The notes under the pieces are model-generated. The model was not told the DNA's origin, did no database searches, and worked only from the letters and a program-made list of their open reading frames with translations. Below, in pieces: positions 11,769 through 45,025 of a stretch of 45,025 nt of DNA. The first letter of the stretch is position 1. Each line of letters opens with the position of its first letter. The translations under genes were made by a program, and so were the position numbers. This DNA is from a virus. The stretch is taken from IMG/VR virus record IMGVR_UViG_3300005921_000005, positions 1-45,025 of that record. One strand, written 5' to 3'.

Positions 11769-12052
11769 TCACCGCGGCTCGGCATTCCGGTCCACTGAAC
11801 CTGAAGCGGACTGCCATCCTCGCCGACAATCGCTTGAGGCACCTTACCTTCGAGCCTCTCAGCGATTTCCTTGAAATGGGTTCCGCTGCCTTTGTTGGCG
11901 TGGTCTACTGCCGCTTGTGCGAAAGCCTTCGCAAACTCCGGATCTTCAAATAAGTCCTGCAATGCCTTGGTGATAGGCTTTGTCTTGGGGCGTCCTGAAG
12001 GATTGCCGCTCTGACCAGGCTGCCAAGGCTTGAGATTTTCTGTATTAGCCAT
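11756..12052 (-). CDS. Putative terminase small subunit
   Basis: 98 residues from ATG at 12050-12052 (a longer frame reaches 12166 but would overlap the upstream gene). The N-terminus has QPGQSGNPSGRPK, the hallmark of a short domain often placed directly before large terminase genes and believed to recognise packaging DNA. Helices follow (ITKALQDLFEDPEFAKAFAQ). It overlaps the large subunit start, so the two are coupled. Small-subunit role is inferred from this motif and position. Confidence 0.75.
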   Translation of the reverse strand: MANTENLKPWQPGQSGNPSGRPKTKPITKALQDLFEDPEFAKAFAQAAVDHANKGSGTHFKEIAERLEGKVPQAIVGEDGSPLQVQWTGMPSRGECPP

Positions 12053-12078
12053 TGTTCCACTCACTGTTAGCAGTGAGA

Positions 12079-12777
12079 TTAGCCTCGGATCGCCGCTACC
12101 AAGCCGACCGCGTTGGTTACGCTGAGTAGTCTTACCCGGGCGAACTTCGGTATGTTCCAGGTGCAATCGGCGTGGAAGGTGTTGTTGGTGGCGTCTACGC
12201 TCGTGATGTTGAAGCCGGCAAGCGTCTGATAGTTGGCGTCAGCGTCAGCGTCGGCGCCTTGGATGTCCACTTCGAAAGCTCCGGGAGCTCCGCTGAACTT
12301 GCCATCCACCGCAAAGCCAAGCGATGAGTTGAGCGAAACCGGGCCTGACAGGGCAAAGGCTTGGCCAGCTTGCGGGGCTGCCGGGGATTCGTACTGAATG
12401 CCAATCGCCGTACCTACGCCACCCGTGTCCGGGGCTTGGTGCAGAATGACGGGATCGTTGGGGACCAGGGTTGCGGTTGTCGCTGAGCCGATAGCCGTCA
12501 CTGTGTACCAGCCGTCAAAACGGGTTCCAAGCACGGAGGTTGGCTCGAGCCCGGTTACGCCGCTGATGACTCCAAGCCCGATGTAGACGCTGCCGCCGAC
12601 TTGCCAATTATGCGCCGCGCTGACGGTAATCGTTACTACTCCGCCGGCCGCGCGCACCAATCCGCCCGGTGAGGCTGAGATGGTCGATGCGAGGTATTTG
12701 CCGAAGCTGTAACCCACAACTCCACGCATGAGCCCAGCAAGGGGATTTTGCAATGATGACTGAACGTAATTTGGCAC
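12079..12777 (-). CDS. Structural protein, beta-rich (decoration or minor virion protein)
   Basis: 232 residues, GTG at 12775-12777 with AAGGA upstream. It is Gly, Ala, Thr and Val rich with alternating polar residues and no membrane segment after the first 30 residues. FDGWYTVTAIG near residue 87 resembles the GYNG-type modules of the tail proteins. It sits between terminase and another beta-rich protein. A virion surface role is inferred from composition and location. Confidence 0.6.
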   Translation of the reverse strand: MPNYVQSSLQNPLAGLMRGVVGYSFGKYLASTISASPGGLVRAAGGVVTITVSAAHNWQVGGSVYIGLGVISGVTGLEPTSVLGTRFDGWYTVTAIGSATTATLVPNDPVILHQAPDTGGVGTAIGIQYESPAAPQAGQAFALSGPVSLNSSLGFAVDGKFSGAPGAFEVDIQGADADADANYQTLAGFNITSVDATNNTFHADCTWNIPKFARVRLLSVTNAVGLVAAIRG

Positions 12778-27422: not shown

Positions 27423-27638
27423 TCACCCGGCCCGCAAGATCCCGTCAGCACCGAGCACGGCAGGATCGAGCAAGTGGGCCTTGGCGTCAAGGGCCGGATA
27501 CACGAGGGCTGCGAAGTCGTCCAGCGACATGCCCTTGGCAGAGTAAAGTCTGCACACCACATCCACGGTAGTTTTCCCGAAGATCGAATAGTTTACCGTG
27601 ACGACTGCGTCCTCGTAGACGATTTGCTGAGAGGCCAT
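27423..27638 (-). CDS. Hypothetical late protein
   Basis: 71 residues from ATG at 27636-27638, overlapping the stop of the Tat-signal gene (TAATG). Compact mixed fold (VTVNYSIFGKTTVDVVCRLY, SLDDFAALVYPALDAKAHLL). Coupling suggests action with the exported protein upstream. No family recognised. Confidence 0.55.
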   Translation of the reverse strand: MASQQIVYEDAVVTVNYSIFGKTTVDVVCRLYSAKGMSLDDFAALVYPALDAKAHLLDPAVLGADGILRAG

Positions 27639-28264
27639 TATTTGTACGCTTTCGCAAGCGCCGCGGTTTCACTGTCGAGTGCCACATTCCCGGTTTGCCG
27701 ACTGAGCACCGCTGCCATACGGGCCTTAAAAGCTGTGAGTTCGGCTTGCAAATGCGCTTGGCTGGGTGGCGTCATCACCGTGACTCTGACGCCCACGCTT
27801 GGGTTGGAGGTGGCCACAGTCGGGCTGAAGATGCCGACAATCGTGCCAATCTCCGTAGTTACCGCGCTGATAATGTCGGCTATCACAGTTTGGTGCAGCG
27901 GGTCTTTGACCTGAGCAGCCTTCAAAATGGCCAGCACATCTGTATTCAGCGTACTCATGCCACTCTCGAACTGCTGGAGTAGACTCGGTGATGTGCCTCC
28001 GTTGGCCGTCAGCGAAGCCTCATAGTTTTTATAGAGGCTCACGACGGTAGCCACGCCGCCATCGAAGATCCCGAGAGCCACCTGCACGGCAGCACCGATC
28101 GCCGGGTCAGCTAGTTCCACGATGGGCAAAATTCCATCTATTCCCGGAGTCATCAATTGAAGGATGTTCACCACGGCATCCCCCGCCGCGCATCCTTCCA
28201 AATCCACTAGCGCTACGCCGCCAGCCACGAGCGGCACGTGTACTAAAAAGTTACGCCTGTTCAT
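27638..28264 (-). CDS. Putative Tat-exported lipoprotein
   Basis: 208 residues from ATG at 28262-28264, overlapping the previous stop (ATGA). The start MNRRNFLVHVPLVAGGVALV has a twin-arginine motif (RRNFL) and a hydrophobic core. LEGC at residues 22-25 follows as a lipobox with Cys25. The mature part is helical and Ala/Thr/Val-rich. If processed, it would be anchored in the envelope of the host. Tat lipoproteins are rare in phages. Superinfection exclusion or lysis are possible roles, both unproven. Confidence 0.7.
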   Translation of the reverse strand: MNRRNFLVHVPLVAGGVALVDLEGCAAGDAVVNILQLMTPGIDGILPIVELADPAIGAAVQVALGIFDGGVATVVSLYKNYEASLTANGGTSPSLLQQFESGMSTLNTDVLAILKAAQVKDPLHQTVIADIISAVTTEIGTIVGIFSPTVATSNPSVGVRVTVMTPPSQAHLQAELTAFKARMAAVLSRQTGNVALDSETAALAKAYK

Positions 28265-29103: not shown

Positions 29104-29418
29104 TCACTCCGGCGCGGCTCGGTAGCGCGTGACCAGTTCGGACCGGGTGTCCACTTTCGCTTTGTGAAGCAGCGATGAAACGTGGAATTTCACGGTGCGC
29201 TCGCCCATGTTCAGCGCGGAGGCTATTTCCTTGTTCCGCTTGAACCGGCAGAGGAGAGCCAGGACTTCCCGTTCTCTATCCGTCAGTGCGAACTTGGGAA
29301 GATCAGCCTCCTTTACCACAATAGCACCTTTTTCAAACCTTACTTCGATAGGAATGCGGATGACCAGCACGTACTGCTCACGTGCGAACTCAAGCGTTAT
29401 CCGCCGGTTCTTTGTCAT
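29104..29418 (-). CDS. LuxR-type HTH transcription regulator
   Basis: 104 residues from ATG at 29416-29418, overlapping the previous stop (ATGA). Residues 45-98 show the GerE/LuxR HTH: LTDREREVLALL, then NKEIASALNMGERTVKFHVS, then KVDTRSELV. The N-terminal 40 residues are a short beta region with no receiver domain. It probably binds DNA as a dimer. A LuxR-type regulator among exported proteins is unusual and could control the phage late or lysis genes or host genes. Confidence 0.85.
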   Translation of the reverse strand: MTKNRRITLEFAREQYVLVIRIPIEVRFEKGAIVVKEADLPKFALTDREREVLALLCRFKRNKEIASALNMGERTVKFHVSSLLHKAKVDTRSELVTRYRAAPE

Positions 29419-29658: not shown

Positions 29659-30366
29659 TCAGGGCGTCAATGCAAACGAAGAACTTTTCGTGACGGCGAG
29701 TAACTTTGCGAGCATAGGCGCCTTGAACAGGACGACTTGAATCGTCAGGCCCGTCGAACCCTGCGTGAATTGGTCCACCGCCATCGTGTTCGAGAATTGC
29801 GCGATCGGCGCGGAAGTCCCCGGCAGAATGAACTCAAGTTCGACGTACCCGTTGGCGTCCACCAAGCCCGTGTTGATGGACAGCGAGCCAGTGAGGTTTC
29901 CCAACGTGTCACTAGCCACGCTTCCCGCAGACACCCAAGTAGTCCCGTTCCACTGGCTGATGGTAACTGGCCCAGAGTACACGGCGGTTGAATCGTCAAA
30001 GACGAGCTGGCCGGTAACGGTCAAGCTGACAGTCGGAGGAACAGGAATCACAGTGAGCGTCACGGTGTTGGATTGCAAACTGGCTGTTCCCCCCGTGCAA
30101 CCATAGAGGTTGACGCTCAGCGTGGTTCCGCTCTCGGCAATCGTGGCCAGCGGGATAACATAGGTGACGGTCGAACCTTTGGAGCCGTAGTGACCAACTC
30201 CGTTTACTGTCCAGAACGGCGAGCACGGCCCTCCGCTGACAGTCACAGAGAAAGTCGCCGAAGAGCCTACTGTGACGGTTTCATTCGTTGGCTGGACGGT
30301 GATCGCCTGCCCGCGCGCCGCGGCCGCACCGGCGAGAAAAGCGAGAATGGCTAGAGTTTTGCGCAT
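29659..30366 (-). CDS. Secreted Ig-like protein
   Basis: 235 residues from ATG at 30364-30366. MRKTLAILAFLAGAAAARGQ is a Sec signal. Then TVQPTNETVTVGSSATFSVT, an Ig-like domain opening, and a second beta domain near TVSLTVTGQLVFDDSTAVYS. One Cys pair (GGPCSPFW, NLYGCTGG) may bridge. A phage protein with a signal peptide and Ig domains would act in the host envelope or outside it. Attachment, exclusion or carbohydrate binding are possible. Resembles surface proteins of Acidobacteriota in style only. Confidence 0.7.
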   Translation of the reverse strand: MRKTLAILAFLAGAAAARGQAITVQPTNETVTVGSSATFSVTVSGGPCSPFWTVNGVGHYGSKGSTVTYVIPLATIAESGTTLSVNLYGCTGGTASLQSNTVTLTVIPVPPTVSLTVTGQLVFDDSTAVYSGPVTISQWNGTTWVSAGSVASDTLGNLTGSLSINTGLVDANGYVELEFILPGTSAPIAQFSNTMAVDQFTQGSTGLTIQVVLFKAPMLAKLLAVTKSSSFALTP

Positions 30367-30445: not shown

Positions 30446-30718
30446 TCATTGCAGCCTTGATGGGCATTTCCCGCGCGAATAATCTAAGAGTGAGCACGGA
30501 TCCTCCGAGGGAAGCATTCGGTATTCCTTATCAATAACGGAGAAACGTTGACCACTGCTTACAACAATAAGCGCCATGTCTGCATCCTTGCCGTATGTCG
30601 GGTCGAAGGCATTAGCCCAATACCGCGCTCTCTCCATTCGGTGAAGCGTTGAGCGGACGCAGAGCAGCCCCCCGACGATAATCACAAGACACATAATCCC
30701 AAGCGTTACGGTTTTCAT
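30446..30718 (-). CDS. Small membrane-anchored protein with a LamG-like scrap
   Basis: 90 residues from ATG at 30716-30718, with AGGGAGGA upstream. Residues 5-24 are an N-terminal hydrophobic anchor (TLGIMCLVIIVGGLLCVRST). The C-terminus EYRMLPSEDPCSLLDYSRG strongly resembles the start of the LamG domain of the next gene (EYRILPTESPAALVDYSGN). It may be a truncated duplicate. Function unknown. Confidence 0.6.
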   Translation of the reverse strand: MKTVTLGIMCLVIIVGGLLCVRSTLHRMERARYWANAFDPTYGKDADMALIVVSSGQRFSVIDKEYRMLPSEDPCSLLDYSRGKCPSRLQ

Positions 30719-30732
30719 AGTTCCTCCCTGTC

Positions 30733-32703
30733 TCATTGTAGGCTAGCCTTCCAGGTGCAACCTGCCGCTGCCGCGCTCACAAGAACAGACTCCAGCTTGA
30801 CGATTGGCCAGTTAGTAGATGTGGCGAGCGGTGCTGTGAATGTAGCGCCGCCATCTATTGTTTCCGTCGATAGAAAGGGTGTGATTGTCCACGGGCTTGT
30901 CGAATTGGTGATGCGTCGATAGATGGGCTGCCCGGTTCTCCCTTGGCATGTCTGTAGCGTGTGGATCGGAGTTACCGCCGACCCGCCGAGAGTCGCGTAC
31001 ACATCCACATCTAATTCTTGAGGAACTACCGCTGTGCCGAAAATAGTTCCCGCTCCCAGCCCGGTTGTTCCGTTGTATGCGGTAAATGCCGAACTGCTCG
31101 CCGTCAAAATAAACCAGCATCCCATGGTCAGGTTCGCCGTAGTGCTGTTGTAGCCTGCCGGGGTGACACCCGTAACAATGGCGCACTGGCCTGGAGAGAA
31201 CGTATTCGCCACGGTAAACGTCATCGTGTTGGTTGCTTCAGTGGCCGCCGTGATTGTCGCCGGAACGGTGGCCGTGGTCGTATAGGTGTTCCCGGTTGAG
31301 AAATCCTGCGCTGCGTACAGGTCATTGAACGTGCGCTGAATCAACGGGGCCATGATGTTCAGAACGGATTGCTGCGTGGGGTGAATGTGATCGACCTGAA
31401 AGAATCCTGTAGCGCTTTGCCCATCGGCTCCTAGCCCGAGCGTGCCGCCTAAGTCCGTGAAGCCATCGAAGCAGCCACGCCAGTATTGGCGTTCCAGCGG
31501 ATCAAGCACATCCTTCCCGGCATCGTATAGCGTGTTGCTAATCATGGAAACCATGAAAACCCGGTCATACCCGGAGTTTTTCCTGCCACGGCACCAGTTC
31601 ATCAGGTACTCGATAATCTGTGTCCCGGTTTTTGGCGTGGCAAAGTCGTTGATGCCTTCAAAGATGTTGATGATCGAGCGCCCGTTGGCAGGCTGCCGCA
31701 TGTACAAGTCGTTGTCGATTTTTGCCGCCGTGGATTCCGATTGCGCGGTCCTTCCTGCTAGGCCGAAGTTGAAAGTTGTCCAAGAGCCATTGGTCATCCC
31801 CGGCATGTTGTTGCACCAGGACAGCGGAGCGCCGTTAACCACCGTGATGGAATCTCCGACGCAGGTGTAGGTGTTGCCTACTACGCTCGATTGCAAGGAT
31901 TGCGGAACGTTACGATTCGCCATCGCGCTGAGTATGAACTTCGAGTCTCCGGCAATCTCTGCCGCAGTCAGCACGCGGTTGTAAAGAGCCATGTAGTAGA
32001 TTTGCCCGGTGTAGTAGAGAGCACCGGCACCGCAGATTTGCCATGCCCCCGAGGACTGAAGCCCCGCAGACGTTCCCGGCCCGGTAGTGTAATCCGGCAC
32101 TGCCACGCCATTGAGATAGAGAACGTCGGTTGTGCCCATTGTGACCGCAACGACATTCGTCCCTAGTGCGCTGGCATAAGCCTGAGTGACAGCTAATCCA
32201 GGCTTCACTGTGCGGAGAATCCCTTGCCCAAGGATCGGAGCGCCACCCCCGGAATTGATGTCAAAGGCGATGTTAAAGGTACTCCCGCTGAGTATGGCGC
32301 TGTCTGTGCTGACCGATGGCAACTGATAGCCGATGAAAGCAATAATAGTCAGCGCGGAATTGAGTCCCGCAGGCAGGACAACTCCCCCGGTGCCTGGGCA
32401 GGAAATGCCGCCAGTAACAGGGATGATTGTCGGAGCTACACCCGCCGTTCCAGTGGCGTTGTTGCCGTTGCCTGAATAGTCCACCAGCGCGGCAGGAGAC
32501 TCTGTCGGCAATATCCGGTACTCCGCTATCAAGCCGGAAGTAATCGGCACGGAGGTAACGCCAGGAAAGCCCGGAACAGCGGAAACGGAGGTTGTGCTGG
32601 AGCCGCCCCCGCCGCTAGAGGGTCCGTATGCGCCATTTGGCACTTGGGCCCACGCCACACAGCCAAAAAGTGTCACAACGATTGCAAACAGGTACCGTTT
32701 CAT
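30733..32703 (-). CDS. Secreted LamG plus SGNH-hydrolase protein
   Basis: 656 residues from ATG at 32701-32703. MKRYLFAIVVTLFGCVAWAQ is a Sec signal. Residues 58-250 look like a LamG/concanavalin domain (DYSGNGNNATG, YYMALYNRVLTAAEI). The SGNH hydrolase follows: GDS at 283-285, G317, EGINDF at 349-354 with GxND-like spacing, and DHIH at 438-441 with catalytic Asp and His. Such enzymes remove acyl groups from sugars or lipids. A GYNS-type module lies near 500. A signal peptide is unusual for a phage tail enzyme and suggests action in the periplasm or outside the cell. Frame also open upstream, rejected because of the signal. Confidence 0.82.
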   Translation of the reverse strand: MKRYLFAIVVTLFGCVAWAQVPNGAYGPSSGGGGSSTTSVSAVPGFPGVTSVPITSGLIAEYRILPTESPAALVDYSGNGNNATGTAGVAPTIIPVTGGISCPGTGGVVLPAGLNSALTIIAFIGYQLPSVSTDSAILSGSTFNIAFDINSGGGAPILGQGILRTVKPGLAVTQAYASALGTNVVAVTMGTTDVLYLNGVAVPDYTTGPGTSAGLQSSGAWQICGAGALYYTGQIYYMALYNRVLTAAEIAGDSKFILSAMANRNVPQSLQSSVVGNTYTCVGDSITVVNGAPLSWCNNMPGMTNGSWTTFNFGLAGRTAQSESTAAKIDNDLYMRQPANGRSIINIFEGINDFATPKTGTQIIEYLMNWCRGRKNSGYDRVFMVSMISNTLYDAGKDVLDPLERQYWRGCFDGFTDLGGTLGLGADGQSATGFFQVDHIHPTQQSVLNIMAPLIQRTFNDLYAAQDFSTGNTYTTTATVPATITAATEATNTMTFTVANTFSPGQCAIVTGVTPAGYNSTTANLTMGCWFILTASSSAFTAYNGTTGLGAGTIFGTAVVPQELDVDVYATLGGSAVTPIHTLQTCQGRTGQPIYRRITNSTSPWTITPFLSTETIDGGATFTAPLATSTNWPIVKLESVLVSAAAAGCTWKASLQ

Positions 32704-33009: not shown

Positions 33010-33125
33010 CCAAGCCAGCCACACCCAAGCCGCCGAAGCCTCCAAAGAAAGCCTGGAATGCCGCTGCGCCTATGAAGGTTCCCGGCAAGCTGCGCGACTT
33101 GCTCTACAGCCATTCTCCACGCTAG
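33006..33125 (+). CDS. 39-residue basic protein of the antisense mini-operon
   Basis: ATG at 33006, five bases after a perfect AGGAGG, overlapping the previous stop (ATGA). Pro/Lys-rich start (TKPATPKPPKPPKKAW) then MKVPGKLRDLLYS. The strongest ribosome site of the three. It ends just inside the stop of the large late gene on the other strand. Confidence 0.55.
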   Translation: MTKPATPKPPKPPKKAWNAAAPMKVPGKLRDLLYSHSPR

Positions 33126-34927
33126 AAAACTCTGCCGCTTCTGAGAGTTGCGACCCGCTGGCGCTCGGCTCTTTGCGCGACCCCTTTGGTTTGTGCGGAT
33201 TTGCGCAATTCATCTAATCTCTGCTGGTACTGGTCGATTTGCTGTTGCATCTGCGCCTTCTCTGCCGCCGGCCTGCCTGGAGAATTTCTGAGCGTGTCAG
33301 TCATCCGCTGAACTTCCGTAGATAATCCCGTCACCATATCTTCCGGGGAAATCGTCCGCATGGATGCTTCCACGCCTTTTTCGTTGATGCCGCCCTTGTA
33401 AGGCACCTGTGGCCGGTCGTTGGCTGTTCCAACTTTTCTTACTCCGACGGGTTGCGGGCCTTCTGTGGCTGGAGTTTCCAGTTTAGCGACCTCCGGCTGA
33501 TGCGCGGCTGTCACGGTCGGCGGCAAGGTAGGCGGAGGTTCTGTGCGCGGGCCGGGGTACCCCACACCTTCTCGCGGCGTGTAAATGATCGGCTTGTTGA
33601 TATTGCGCAGAACGTCGCCAGCTCCAGGGGCTCCGCGCTGCGCCGCTCCGGTCAATTCGTCGCGTGGGATGGAATACATCGACCCCGGCTTATCCCCTGG
33701 TTGTAGGGCGCGCGGTTCGGGGAAGTGCATAACTTCTGGAGATGGGGCGGTGCCAGCAGACCCAACTTCTCCCGCGGCTGGTTTCGGCTCATTGATGCCC
33801 CGTCTGCGAATCGCATTCAACTCCTCTCCGCGTTTGGAGTAGAAGTCCTCCATGGATGGCAGGTGCGCACCTGGGAACTCCGCCACAGCCGGTTTCTCTC
33901 CCTCGCCACGGGCAAGAATCGCGTTCCGCTCCGCCCCTTCCTTGGCGTAGAAGTCATTTGCGGATGGCAAGTGTGCTCCGGGTGAGATAGGAGTTGGGGT
34001 ATCGGTTGGGATGGGTTGCAATTTCTCTTGCCGAGCCGCTTCTCGGGCTTGCTGTTTGGTCAAAGCCTCGTTTTTACTGCGGATAGCGTTTCGCTCTGCC
34101 CCTTCGTGGGCGTAGAAGTCGCTGGCTGCCGGCAGAGGCGCGCCAGGAAATTCCGGCGATGGACGATAAGGAAACGCCTTCTCTATGAGGCTTGGGCCAA
34201 GTCTGTATCCCGACCCTGCACCTATCACTGCGGCGGCAGGATTGCCATGGGCCGCACCGTAAGCTCCGCCTCCAACCATTCCGCCAACCTGCCCAATGGT
34301 TTTGACGGTTGGCTTCAAAGTTCCTTCCGGAGTGTAGAGATGCTCCCCGCCAACCTTTCTGAGAGCAGGGACGCCACGGCCGATTGCCTCTCCTGCTGCC
34401 AGTTCCGCAACCGGAACAGCCGCTTCCCCGAGAATCGCTCCGCCTTCCCCGCGTTCTCCGTGCTCCGCCGCGCTTTTCCCGCTCATACCCACGTAAGATC
34501 CGAGCCCGGAACTAACCGCTTCGCCAACCTTGCCAAGAATTCCGTGGCCACGCTGCCAGCCAGCCTTTGCCTCATCGTAAGCCCCTGGCAAGGAACGGAC
34601 GTTCAGCGGGTCAATCGTCATCAACCCAGCATTCTTAGCTATGCTCGACGGCGATAAAGTGCTGACGGCCTGCTGCTTGAGAATATTCCCAGCCGCCGCT
34701 CCCATCCCTTTGGTTGTAATTCCGCCGCCTTTTTCGTTCGACAATCTTGCTTTTTCAAATTCCGTCTCAACCTGCGGCTTCATCGGTTGCTGGCCGGGAA
34801 GCGGGGTTACGCCTTGCCGCGCCTGTTCGCTGTCGGGAGCTTCATCCCCAAAGGAAAATCCATCGGCAGTCTTGGCTGGCTGCTTGTCGTCTTCATCAAA
34901 AGAAAATTTCTTCTTGTCGTCAGCCAT
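33122..34927 (-). CDS. Putative ejection protein with repeats and Gly-rich membrane-active region
   Basis: 601 residues from ATG at 34925-34927, beginning MADDKKKFSFDEDDKQPAKT. Acidic N-terminus. Gly/Ala-rich stretch near 215-260 (GGMVGGGAYGAAHGNPAAAV) is typical of proteins that enter membranes. Then three imperfect repeats of about 44-50 residues sharing DFYAxEGAERNAI-like cores, and a Pro-rich tail followed by a helix. A virion protein ejected with DNA is inferred from position after two similar disordered proteins. Confidence 0.6.
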   Translation of the reverse strand: MADDKKKFSFDEDDKQPAKTADGFSFGDEAPDSEQARQGVTPLPGQQPMKPQVETEFEKARLSNEKGGGITTKGMGAAAGNILKQQAVSTLSPSSIAKNAGLMTIDPLNVRSLPGAYDEAKAGWQRGHGILGKVGEAVSSGLGSYVGMSGKSAAEHGERGEGGAILGEAAVPVAELAAGEAIGRGVPALRKVGGEHLYTPEGTLKPTVKTIGQVGGMVGGGAYGAAHGNPAAAVIGAGSGYRLGPSLIEKAFPYRPSPEFPGAPLPAASDFYAHEGAERNAIRSKNEALTKQQAREAARQEKLQPIPTDTPTPISPGAHLPSANDFYAKEGAERNAILARGEGEKPAVAEFPGAHLPSMEDFYSKRGEELNAIRRRGINEPKPAAGEVGSAGTAPSPEVMHFPEPRALQPGDKPGSMYSIPRDELTGAAQRGAPGAGDVLRNINKPIIYTPREGVGYPGPRTEPPPTLPPTVTAAHQPEVAKLETPATEGPQPVGVRKVGTANDRPQVPYKGGINEKGVEASMRTISPEDMVTGLSTEVQRMTDTLRNSPGRPAAEKAQMQQQIDQYQQRLDELRKSAQTKGVAQRAERQRVATLRSGRVF

Positions 34928-34928
34928 G

Positions 34929-36527
34929 CTAATCGGCTAGTTGTGCGCCTTTGTCGAGATATTCTTGGACTCTATTTCCAGGGATGTGCCGAATCTTCCC
35001 ATTGTCGTCCTTCAAATTGATATGCACATCGGCGGGCAAAAAGTCCACTGGTTGATGCCTGCGCACTGACTCTTTGGCTGTGGTTTCCCACTGGATTTGC
35101 CGAGTGTTGGAAATGAGATCGTTAAAATCCTTCCATTGCGAAGCGCTGAGCTGCTGGCCTGTGGCCACTCTGTCCACGTAACGGTCGATTCTGTCCATTA
35201 GCCCGATGGCGTCTTTGTGCTCGGAAATCATGTTCTCGCCCATCTGCGTGCCTTTAACAGAGCCGAATGTAGAGCCGAGATGCTGGGCAAGAGCGACCAT
35301 CGAAGCCGCTCCGGTGGCTGGATTATTCTGGTAGTCGTGATAGGCGTTCTGGAATTTCTTGTAGTTCTGCTCAATGTCCGTCGAAGGCTTGACGTATTGC
35401 GTGTTGAATTGATTGCGCTCCGTGTTGGCCAGCCGTGCGCCCGTTCCTGTAGTTGCCCCGCCAAGATTGGATGCATCTGTCTCTCCAACTTTCCCAGTTT
35501 TGTTGTTGAAGGTCTTCCCGCTGAATGACCCGTCGGGATTGAGTAAGGGTTGCATGGTTCCAACAATCCCGAGCGATGTCGCGTTGGGCTGCGCTGGGCC
35601 TATTTTCTTCCACTGGCCGGTGCCTTCAGTGCCGGAATAGTTTCCTTTCGGGTCGTGCTGATACAGGAAGGGGGTTCCGCCTGGCTTGTCGAGCATCGTA
35701 ACCGTCTTTGGTTCTCCGGGTTCCTTGCCAGGCTTGGTGTCTTCAATCCCTTGCGCCAAAGCAATCCTTGCTTCATAAGCCGTGTTGGGTTTTTTGGTTT
35801 CCGGGTTTATTTCCTTCATCTTTGCAGCAAGGGCTTGCTCGTCAATGCTTCCCGGTTTCGTCTCTTTCCCTTCCTCAAAATCCTCTTTGCGCTCGGCAAG
35901 GTCTGCTGTTCTGTCGGCCCGCGTTCCAGCGGCCTTCCGCTCGGTTTCAGTGTTTTCGCGTGTCTCGGCTTGGCCTAGTTTGCTTTCAAGACCATGCTCC
36001 TGCATCCGTCTGTTCAAATCCGTGCCGGGAATGAGGCCCATAGTCGCGGGGGCGAAAATATCTCCGGCAATGTTTCCGACTTTCCCGAGCGCATGCCCAA
36101 TCTTGCCTAGCACTCCAGGATGATTTTCTGCCGTGCCCAATGGATTCGCTTTCTGATCGGCAATGCGGGCAAGTTGTGATTGGTAGTTCTCCGCGCTGCC
36201 CGGAGCTCCGACCAACGGCAATTTCTGCCGCTCGGCAAAAGTAAGCGGCTTGACGGGTGACGGAGTGCCTACAGGCTGCAATCCACTTGGCGCAACTGGC
36301 GCACCGCCACCGATGTCTGGAGCCTCGGGAGGGCCACCAACGCGCTTTAATGGCGAAAGCGGATGTATGCCCGGATCGCGGTCCATTCCATGCGCGCCAA
36401 CTGGCTGCATGACGTTGCCTTCTGTGCGACCAGCAGGAACAGGCTGCGGAGCGGCGGGCGTAGCGGAACTCAACAACGCCAATTGCCGCAGTTTTTCCGG
36501 GTCGAGTGCTGGAAGTGGAGTTGCCAT
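34929..36527 (-). CDS. Putative internal virion/ejection protein
   Basis: 532 residues from ATG at 36525-36527. N-terminal Pro/Gly/Ala-rich low-complexity region (PQPVPAGRTEGNVMQPVGAH), charged helical middle (QAETRENTETERKAAGTRAD), and C-terminal folded part with DLISNTRQIQWETTAKESVR. Lies between two other disordered late genes. The pattern of podovirus internal proteins fits but there is no specific motif. Confidence 0.55.
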   Translation of the reverse strand: MATPLPALDPEKLRQLALLSSATPAAPQPVPAGRTEGNVMQPVGAHGMDRDPGIHPLSPLKRVGGPPEAPDIGGGAPVAPSGLQPVGTPSPVKPLTFAERQKLPLVGAPGSAENYQSQLARIADQKANPLGTAENHPGVLGKIGHALGKVGNIAGDIFAPATMGLIPGTDLNRRMQEHGLESKLGQAETRENTETERKAAGTRADRTADLAERKEDFEEGKETKPGSIDEQALAAKMKEINPETKKPNTAYEARIALAQGIEDTKPGKEPGEPKTVTMLDKPGGTPFLYQHDPKGNYSGTEGTGQWKKIGPAQPNATSLGIVGTMQPLLNPDGSFSGKTFNNKTGKVGETDASNLGGATTGTGARLANTERNQFNTQYVKPSTDIEQNYKKFQNAYHDYQNNPATGAASMVALAQHLGSTFGSVKGTQMGENMISEHKDAIGLMDRIDRYVDRVATGQQLSASQWKDFNDLISNTRQIQWETTAKESVRRHQPVDFLPADVHINLKDDNGKIRHIPGNRVQEYLDKGAQLAD

Positions 36528-37115
36528 TTATGTCATATACCCCGCGCCGTTCGCGCCGCCGTATGCCGCCTTCGCTGCATTGGAAAGCGAACCCATAACG
36601 CCTTCAGCATCTCCCAATCCTTGCTGTAATCCACTGGTCTGATTTGCTTGCGTCCAGGCATTTATATCCTGCGGGACAAGCCCTTGTGCCTTCAGTTGAG
36701 CATCCACATCTTCGCCGTACAGCCCTCCGAGGGCGCCAGCCGCTTGAGATTGCTGGCCGAGTTTTACTTTGGCGTTTTCGTTCTGCACGCCCAGAGCATT
36801 TTGGCTGAGTTGCTGCGTTTTATTTCTTGAGGCTTGGTCGAGAACGCCTGACAATGCTCCGGTATTGTGCGTGCGCGCTGCTTCTAGGTTTGCCTGTCCG
36901 GTGATTCCTGCGTTGGCTCCGCCAGCGCCTTGCTCTCCGGCTACCAGCGTATTATTTATATCCGTGGGATTCATGCCCGTGGGGTTGGTAAGTTGTTTCT
37001 GCTCGAAGGGCACAAGAGATGAGCCGATGCTTGTTGCATTGCTGCCGTACCCTGCCCCGGTTGCCGTTGCTGTGTTTGTAGCGTTCTGCGCCGCTTTCAC
37101 GCGACTGTTGCTCAT
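36528..37115 (-). CDS. Putative internal virion protein, Gln/Asn/Ala-rich
   Basis: 195 residues, start overlapping the previous stop (ATGA). Low-complexity, Ala, Gly, Asn, Gln and Thr rich with NTATATGAGYGSNATSIGSS. Such helical, soluble proteins are common among ejected proteins of podoviruses. Identification by composition and position only. Confidence 0.5.
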   Translation of the reverse strand: MSNSRVKAAQNATNTATATGAGYGSNATSIGSSLVPFEQKQLTNPTGMNPTDINNTLVAGEQGAGGANAGITGQANLEAARTHNTGALSGVLDQASRNKTQQLSQNALGVQNENAKVKLGQQSQAAGALGGLYGEDVDAQLKAQGLVPQDINAWTQANQTSGLQQGLGDAEGVMGSLSNAAKAAYGGANGAGYMT

Positions 37116-38132: not shown

Positions 38133-38708
38133 ATGATCGGAAAGAAATTTGGACGCCTCACTATTCTCAGAATTTCTAAAGAAAAGCATGACCGCCGTGG
38201 AGCTTTCTTTGTTTGTCGCTGCGCTTGCGGCAACGAATGCACCGTCCGCCGTGATGGGCTTACTAGTGGTCATGCCAAATCCTGCGGCTGTTTGCAGCGC
38301 GAGGCGGCTACAAAAAACTGCCTTAAGAGAACTATACATGGCGATTGTCGTAGAGGAAAACGTACTAAAGAGTTCCGATCCTTCTGTTCAGCGAAAGATC
38401 GTTGCTCAAATCCCAACATCAAAGATTGGCATCGATATGGCGGACGAGGCATAAAGTTTCTCTTTGTTTCTTTTAAGCAATTCCTTTCGCACATCGGGCG
38501 TATGCCCCATCCAGGACTAACGCTTGATAGAATCAACAACGAAGGCCACTATGAAATTGGAAATGTTCGTTGGGCGACTCATTCTGAGCAATGCCGTAAT
38601 CGCCGGAAAATGAAAGTCTCCAAGAGAATGCTTGCAGCACTGCGAATAAACATCAAAAAAGCACAAGAAGCTCTTAGGCTTAAGCGTTTGCGGTCGCAGT
38701 CCCTCTGA
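38133..38708 (+). CDS. Free-standing HNH homing-type endonuclease, antisense insertion
   Basis: 191 residues from ATG at 38133. CRCACGNECTVRRDGLTSGH then KSCGCLQRE is an N-terminal zinc module, and FCSAKDRCSNPNIKDWHRYG plus LTLDRINNEGHYEIGNVRWA then QCRNRRKM is the HNH core. The C-terminus is a basic helix. The base composition is AT-rich compared with the neighbours. It stands opposite to the late operon between two late genes and its 3' end overlaps the next gene, so it looks like a mobile insertion. Confidence 0.88.
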   Translation: MIGKKFGRLTILRISKEKHDRRGAFFVCRCACGNECTVRRDGLTSGHAKSCGCLQREAATKNCLKRTIHGDCRRGKRTKEFRSFCSAKDRCSNPNIKDWHRYGGRGIKFLFVSFKQFLSHIGRMPHPGLTLDRINNEGHYEIGNVRWATHSEQCRNRRKMKVSKRMLAALRINIKKAQEALRLKRLRSQSL

Positions 38709-44307: not shown

Positions 44308-45025
44308 CTACGTAGTGGGCAAAACCAAAAATTGCACTGTGATCTTCGCCGTTCCGTTTCCAGCGGCAAAATTGTTCGTCACTTTTGAAATGACCAGGGC
44401 GGCATTGTCATCCGTCGGAGGATTCCCGGCGGTGTCCGTGGCCGAGAAACTTCCGATTTGCTGAATGGCGCGGTTGGGCGAGATGGTGACAAGGAAAATT
44501 CCGTTGCTCACGAGTGCCTGCGAAGCGCTGCCGGCAACAAAGGAAACCGCTCCGCCTGCGTCGGTGTAGGCTATCGAGCCGCCAAAGAAAACAATTTGGA
44601 TGACCAGCGGAACGATGCGGAAACCAACTCCCGGTGCGGGAACCAAGGTAATCGGAGTCCCGAACAAAGCAAGGATGTTTGCCGAAGTTAGCGCCGTAAC
44701 CGTTTGCGGCAGGTCGGCGGCTACCAGGGCGCGAAAAGCCGGAACGCCTGCAGCGCCAGAAGCCGGTCCGGACCAGACCGTGTTAGCGTTTTCATTTACG
44801 AGTGTGATCGTGTCGGCCAGCGTGCCCGTGGTTGTGACAGGCGAGCCCGTTACCGACGAACTGAAGATCCCCGGCACCGTCAGCGTGTGGGATACGCTTG
44901 AAACTGTTCCGCCTACCCCGGTCAGGTCGGCGGCTACCAGGGCCCGGAACGCTGGCTGCGCCGCTCCGCCGCTGGTTGGCCCGGCCCACACCGTGTTGGC
45001 GTTTTCTGTGGACTTTGTGACCGCC
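44308..45025 (-). CDS. Fibre-like tail protein, C-terminal part (continues at position 723 to 1)
   Basis: Downstream part of the gene whose start is at 721-723; bases 44926-45025 repeat 1-100. About 205 codons are unique here. It has two FRALVAADL repeats (near 44713-44792 and 44926-45005, spaced 213 bases, 71 codons) and a C-terminal domain shared with the protein at 12790-13293. Total protein about 446 residues. Confidence 0.85.
   Translation of the reverse strand, partial: AVTKSTENANTVWAGPTSGGAAQPAFRALVAADLTGVGGTVSSVSHTLTVPGIFSSSVTGSPVTTTGTLADTITLVNENANTVWSGPASGAAGVPAFRALVAADLPQTVTALTSANILALFGTPITLVPAPGVGFRIVPLVIQIVFFGGSIAYTDAGGAVSFVAGSASQALVSNGIFLVTISPNRAIQQIGSFSATDTAGNPPTDDNAALVISKVTNNFAAGNGTAKITVQFLVLPTT
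44926..45025. repeat. 100-bp terminal direct repeat, right copy
   Basis: Exact copy of 1-100. Overlap of a circular genome; the near-repeat at 44713-44792 in the same gene could also have complicated assembly here. Confidence 0.95.

Follow-up and report, generated by a model that had tools for sequence, protein, structure and literature searches.

A predicted exported LamG-SGNH hydrolase from the tail-spike slot of a podovirus-like phage of 45 kb

Introduction

SGNH deacetylase tail fibres have been described in Escherichia phage G7C (gp63.1) and Pectobacterium phage Possum (gp66); as described in PMC9569702, they deacetylate surface polysaccharide and belong to the virion adsorption apparatus. 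A signal-bearing phage SGNH esterase, gp40 of Xanthomonas phage PBR31, resembles tail-associated hydrolases, and a role in lysis was suggested for it (PMC10975493). Secreted proteins resembling tail spikes are also found in bacteria, namely WceF of Pantoea (PMC7949094) and the MAT fibres of Bdellovibrio (PMC10769870). There is precedent both for SGNH deacetylase spikes, of the G7C gp63.1 kind, and, in PBR31 gp40, for a phage SGNH esterase with a signal. For tailed phages, a partial search of the literature, judged on titles, abstracts and selected passages, turned up no description of tail-spike-like proteins that occur in clusters, are exported by Sec and bear disulfides.

Synthesis and attachment of tail spikes are generally placed in the cytoplasm, and exported spike-like proteins are unusual against that norm. 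Here we analyse a gene of a soil phage, represented by a viral DNA of 45,025 nucleotides (IMG/VR record IMGVR_UViG_3300005921_000005; the whole stretch is called the window). The gene product is one of a broader group of phage proteins resembling tail spikes, which appear to be exported from the infected cell and stabilised by disulfides.

Results

The reading frame between 30733 and 33045 on the minus strand is open, and an ATG at 32703 preceded by AGGA (CATAGGACTT-ATG) yields a protein of 656 residues, confirming the gene (30733–32703) drawn in an earlier sequence-only reading of this DNA. The protein opens with a signal peptide, MKRYLFAIVVTLFGCVAWA followed by Q (mature start QVPNG), that has an n-region, a hydrophobic core and a signal peptidase site. 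Our signal caller is simple and home-made; it detects 9 of 10 known E. coli signal peptides and none of 5 negatives, and it called 19 of 1901 internal segments of these proteins in a false-positive check. The stretch LFG-C at residues 12–15 is readable as an alternative lipobox, by way of which the protein could be a lipoprotein; it is not kept in most relatives. The mature part holds 10 cysteines, an even number, and C586 and C649 co-vary. We judge the export signal to be probably real because of cysteine parity and the co-occurrence of signals with a cysteine pair in related spike-like proteins, both described below. The parts of the gene and its neighbours are listed in Table 1.

Table 1. 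Features of the gene for the LamG-SGNH protein and of its surroundings in the window
Feature	Coordinates	Strand	Evidence
Whole gene, exported LamG-SGNH protein (predicted), 656 aa	30733..32703	-	ORF, Pfam, relatives' alignment, AF2 model, fold search
Sec signal peptide, residues 1–19 (AWA-Q)	32647..32703	-	Signal caller; AGGA before ATG
Gly/Ser/Pro-rich linker, residues 20–54	32542..32646	-	Sequence; pLDDT <50 through residue 49
LamG (concanavalin-like) domain, residues 55–256	31936..32541	-	Pfam; VIA Z 19.8, AbnA jelly-roll domain
SGNH hydrolase domain, residues 274–464; S285, G317, N352, H441	31312..31884	-	Alignment; VIA
Beta-rich C-terminal domain, residues 465–656; co-varying C586/C649	30736..31311	-	
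Putative internal virion protein upstream of spike slot	33122..34927	-	Position; no family match
Putative internal virion protein	34929..36527	-	Position; no family match
Putative internal virion protein	36528..37115	-	Position; no family match
Second exported protein (predicted), signal peptide MRKTLAILAFLAGAAAARG before Q	29659..30366	-	Weak Ig-like; weak PHROG tail match 4.6e-5
96-aa ORF, hydrophobic N-terminus, fragment resembling LamG start (EYRMLPSEDPCSLLDYSRG)	30446..30736	-	

Sequence searches of the PDB (zero matches) and NCBIfam returned nothing for the protein, and its AF2 model has a pLDDT of 75.5 and a pTM of 0.71. The LamG domain passes the Pfam cutoff for Laminin_G_3 (E 2.6e-6; 28.1 bits, cutoff 27.6), and in fold it matches the jelly-roll domain of AbnA, a GH43 arabinanase (VIA, Z 19.8). 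The top Foldseek matches of this domain, the trans-sialidase lectin and clostridial neurotoxin binding domains, are generic jelly rolls, and we drew no function from them. The SGNH domain scores under the Pfam cutoff for Lipase_GDSL_2 (E 0.0021; 19.0 bits, cutoff 32.9), and its homologue in Tunturi_5 gp342 reaches 81.5 bits for the same family; in the AF2 model, residues 276–463 take the alpha/beta/alpha SGNH fold (VIA, Z 19.5 to 4rw0, 2.7 Å over 176 residues). Thus the SGNH hydrolase with LamG domain, the signal peptide and the intact GDS, GxND and DxxH-type motifs of the earlier reading all hold up. The motifs read GDS, G, GIND and DHIH; S285 (GDS, block I), G317 (block II) and G350 and N352 (GIND, block III) are invariant across 14 relatives, H441 (DxxH, block V) is present in every alignment row that reaches the position, and Asp438 of DxxH varies.

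The nearest SGNH folds are those of the carbohydrate acetylesterases Est24 and CE3 (Z 19, 2.1–2.5 Å). Carbohydrate acetylesterases as a group (Est24, CE3, xylan and sialate O-acetylesterases) share the SGNH fold with the window protein at Z 17–19 and an rmsd of about 2–4 Å but are cellular enzymes at 11–22% identity, and its ester specificity is predicted from fold similarity at that distance. The C-terminal domain gave weak fold matches (Z up to 9.7), several of them to phage stalks and T4 gp9, and because of that weakness we build no claim on them. Pfam, PHROGs and NCBIfam recognise no peptidoglycan-degrading domain in the protein. No virion-attachment domain is recognised in its sequence or AF2 model, where a low-confidence linker of 35 residues alone separates signal from LamG.

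An exact 100-nt repeat occurs at both ends of the window, which is therefore probably the complete circular assembly of a 45-kb podovirus-like phage. Across this overlap (1–723 plus 44308–45025, minus strand) runs a fibre-like protein of 446 residues with FRALVAADL repeats and zero cysteines; a weak signal call on it, with Asp in the n-region, was taken as false. The gene order in PBR31 is internal proteins A, B and C, tail spike, structural protein, holin, lysozyme and spanin, and proteins of loci L010 and L045 that stand at the place of the window's internal-protein genes match PBR31 internal protein A. By this comparison of gene order, the LamG-SGNH gene is assigned to the tail-spike slot of the late strand, following three putative internal-virion-protein genes. 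The protein of the one at 33122–34927 shows a 95% match to L002 and L003 that begins at residue 56, and its first 55 residues differ in type.

Several further genes were seen nearby. The 96-residue ORF just behind the LamG-SGNH gene looks like a decayed or truncated duplicate, and in L002 its place is occupied by an HNH insert. A gene for a LuxR-type HTH protein (29104–29418, minus strand; GerE, 7e-15) separates the exported genes from the putative lysis region, and L018 has a similar small HTH-like ORF after its cluster. A protein at 27638–28264 (minus strand) has a Tat/lipoprotein-like N-terminus (MNRRNFLVHVPLVAGGVALVDLEGC) and counterparts in L002 and L003. On the strand opposite the tail genes, a cysteine-rich ORF of 191 residues without a Pfam match (38133–38708, plus strand) is possibly a mobile endonuclease. 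We considered a lysogenic-conversion gene and set it aside, with no integrase among the ORFs covered by a partial scan. In relatives, endolysin genes (lysozyme, glucosaminidase or M15 peptidase) lie directly downstream of the cluster; no endolysin was recognised within the window.

Scans of viral contigs found the LamG-SGNH cassette in about 20 loci at 26–97% identity, and its one cultured relative is in Tunturi_5, a phage of Tunturiibacter (Acidobacteriota), whose gp342 contains the LamG-SGNH unit twice, complete in both copies (profile E 7e-76 and 2e-76). In most loci the cassette comes after a signal peptide, either at once or past an extra N-terminal domain (the window, L003, L005–L007, L009, L010, L017, L018, L028–L031, L040, L045 and Tunturi_5 gp342); in L008 and L011–L016 it stands without a signal behind other fibre-like N-termini. 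On these sequences the cassette is modular, swapping between signal peptides and signal-less fibre-like N-termini. In L010 (9632–11943), a frameshift within the SGNH domain, real or an assembly error, splits the gene. Two scans covering 84,980 cellular genomes found no relative of the SGNH part and one LamG-only match, in a Clostridia MAG, and therefore give no host or prophage link. From its resemblance to Tunturi_5, and from that only, we infer an acidobacterial host for the window phage.

Comparison with L002 shows two N-terminal replacements, which we count in favour of export. The Ig-like neighbour shares 216/216 mature positions with its L002 counterpart but 5/27 signal positions; for the SGNH protein the figures are 622/638 (mature part) and 6/24 (N-terminus). 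The replaced N-terminus of the L002 SGNH protein is hydrophobic and is not called as a signal; it has no Lys or Arg, and for want of a basic residue this is the weaker case. Both replacements adjoin HNH-type endonuclease inserts. These HNH/AP2-type genes (L002:9307–9930 and 11910–12470) lie in opposite orientation directly upstream of both exported genes, and in the Ig-like gene the recombination joint falls at the signal-peptidase site.

Signal-bearing genes of this kind occur in runs. In Tunturi_5, gp337–gp342 all bear signals, a clustering matched by 0 of 100,000 gene-order shuffles, and in Tunturi_2 the same is true of gp12, gp13, gp14 (pectin-lyase-like), gp16 and gp17 (161 of 100,000); in Tunturi_3 and Tunturi_4, the tail genes covered by the scan gave no signal call. 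At the same place, L005, L006, L007, L010, L040 and L045 carry runs of two to six signal-bearing fibre-like genes, among which the protein of L005:7153–9450 has a signal peptide followed by a PHROG tail-spike match (5.9e-9). In PBR31, the gene after the tail spike (orf035, 'putative structural protein'; L049:8151–8960) encodes a called signal peptide and fibre-like repeats.

Proteins that fold in the periplasm tend toward paired cysteines. Among ORFs of at least 200 residues, reduced to <50% identity and with the mature part counted, even cysteine counts were found in 27/29 signal-bearing and 97/200 signal-less proteins (Fisher 1.7e-6), with a cleavage rule that was picked after the results of earlier versions were known. 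A rule-free version that drops the first 35 residues in both sets gave 24/28 against 89/193 (5.6e-5). In the earliest version, where a codon-position GC filter had removed most fibre genes, 8/10 were even (p 0.11), and in the second, where the caller often cut too near the N-terminus, so that cysteines of the signal were counted with the mature protein, 23/29 were even (Fisher 0.0014 at <50% identity, weaker at <30%). These p-values need caution, because all are versions of one test. One of the two odd-count signal-bearing proteins is probably a spurious antisense ORF. Counting against the export reading, the SGNH protein of L008 is cysteine-rich with an even count, yet no signal is called on it.

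A second test came from the first cluster gene of L006, L007 and L010, where the signal is directly followed by a relative of residues 1–89 of the PBR31 tail spike (L006 against the annotated spike, 50% identity over 94 residues, E 1e-21). Scanning with a single-protein query found this attachment domain in 52 loci, 21 of them non-redundant, and within these 21 a cysteine pair is present in 6/6 signal-bearing and 0/15 signal-less proteins (p 1.8e-5). The signal-less proteins have their initiator Met at about the signal cleavage point. Together the two cysteine tests support a real export of the signal-bearing spike-like proteins. The contrast drawn by the sequence-only reading, that a phage tail enzyme needs no signal peptide, does not stand, since tail-spike attachment domains in related phages carry predicted Sec signals.

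Discussion

Sequence and predicted structure together establish a signal peptide, a LamG domain, SGNH catalytic residues, a place in the tail-spike slot, module swapping and the cysteine signatures of export; the substrate, timing, place of action and benefit of the enzyme are what we infer. We consider it probable that the gene product is of tail-spike descent, is exported and disulfide-bonded, and works outside the cytoplasm as a carbohydrate O-acetylesterase. A late phage protein of tail-spike or fibre ancestry would be exported by the infected cell via Sec, and its disulfides would form in the oxidising periplasm. The LamG domain is probably carbohydrate-binding, and the SGNH domain would probably strip O-acetyl or similar ester groups from an acetylated surface or extracellular polysaccharide. 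The enzyme would act at the cell envelope and, once freed by lysis, in the cell's surroundings. By altering the receptor or matrix it would likely reduce both the trapping of progeny and superinfection at the dying host, and would ease spread to neighbouring cells.

The strongest competitor, which we still regard as unlikely, is a true virion tail spike that is exported, gains its disulfides in the periplasm and joins completed particles at lysis or later. In its favour are the position in the tail-spike slot, the fibre-like N-termini of relatives without a signal, the in vitro joining of P22 tail spikes to finished heads, and exported neighbours in L006, L007 and L010 that retain the tail-spike attachment domain right behind the signal. 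The window protein, however, has a short linker where that domain would be, and the genome encodes another fibre-like protein, the cysteine-free one across the contig ends; because of these two features, the sequence favours a free enzyme here over a docked spike. The Tunturi paper reports no virion proteomics, which also counts against docking; its main text does not use the term signal peptide.

A lysis role of the kind proposed for PBR31 gp40, with peptidoglycan or the outer membrane as the de-esterified target, is very unlikely in our assessment. The signal peptide, a gene order in which the gene precedes the putative lysis region, the absence of a recognised endolysin in the window and the published lysis role of the PBR31 esterase (PMC10975493) would fit; the relatives' endolysins are separate, LamG and the C-terminal beta domain suggest polysaccharide binding, and the closest folds are carbohydrate acetylesterases, not peptidoglycan enzymes. 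The earlier interpretation thus keeps its SGNH hydrolase, its LamG domain and probable export, and finds no support for lysis. Finally, phage fibres normally fold in the cytoplasm, and an ordinary virion spike in this slot might carry an unused, merely hydrophobic N-terminus; we find this hardly credible against the cysteine parity, the signal/cysteine-pair association, the many dissimilar signal peptides at the same genomic place and the good ribosome-binding sites ahead of several signal-peptide starts.

Given the called signal of PBR31 orf035, export of fibre-like proteins may extend beyond the phages of acidobacteria. A broader proposal, possible but in our view more doubtful than convincing, is that some tailed phages infecting soil bacteria, those of Acidobacteriota at the least, pass tail-spike-slot proteins through Sec, let them fold with disulfides in the periplasm and only at lysis attach them to virions or deploy them outside; to our knowledge, such a split assembly route is not known for tailed phages. 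If a class of exported, disulfide-bearing spike-like proteins exists, it would consist of free processed depolymerases released before or at lysis, or of proteins attached outside the cytoplasm. Either outcome would alter the annotation of receptor-binding proteins in soil viromes and the recombinant production of such proteins (oxidising hosts, signal removed), and both are directly testable in cultured Tunturi phages.

Among described systems, G7C gp63.1 and Possum gp66 share with the window protein an SGNH hydrolase within the tail-fibre repertoire, going by the available text of PMC9569702, which does not mention LamG for either, whereas the window protein has one; the LamG-SGNH profile A2 does not match G7C gp63.1. 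Our caller finds no signal peptide in G7C gp63.1. From that type, with no export signal and cytoplasmic assembly, the window protein departs in its signal peptide and cysteine signature and in having no N-terminal virion-attachment domain. In WceF and the Bdellovibrio MAT fibres, too, an export signal precedes a fold of the phage tail-spike or fibre kind, but these are bacterial genes with beta-helix or S74 fibres rather than SGNH, and WceF is exported via Tat, whereas the signal here is of the Sec kind. PBR31 gp40 is, like the window protein, a phage SGNH esterase with an N-terminal signal; it differs in being a single domain of 215 residues, too short for LamG or the C-terminal domain, with a lipobox-like signal and a gene that adjoins lysis genes on the other strand. 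The nearest relative in any cultured phage is Tunturi_5 gp342, annotated 'tail fiber protein', which in a 309-kb phage carries its LamG-SGNH units twice in tandem within 1186 residues and shares with the window protein the signal peptide, LamG, SGNH and a similar C-terminal segment.
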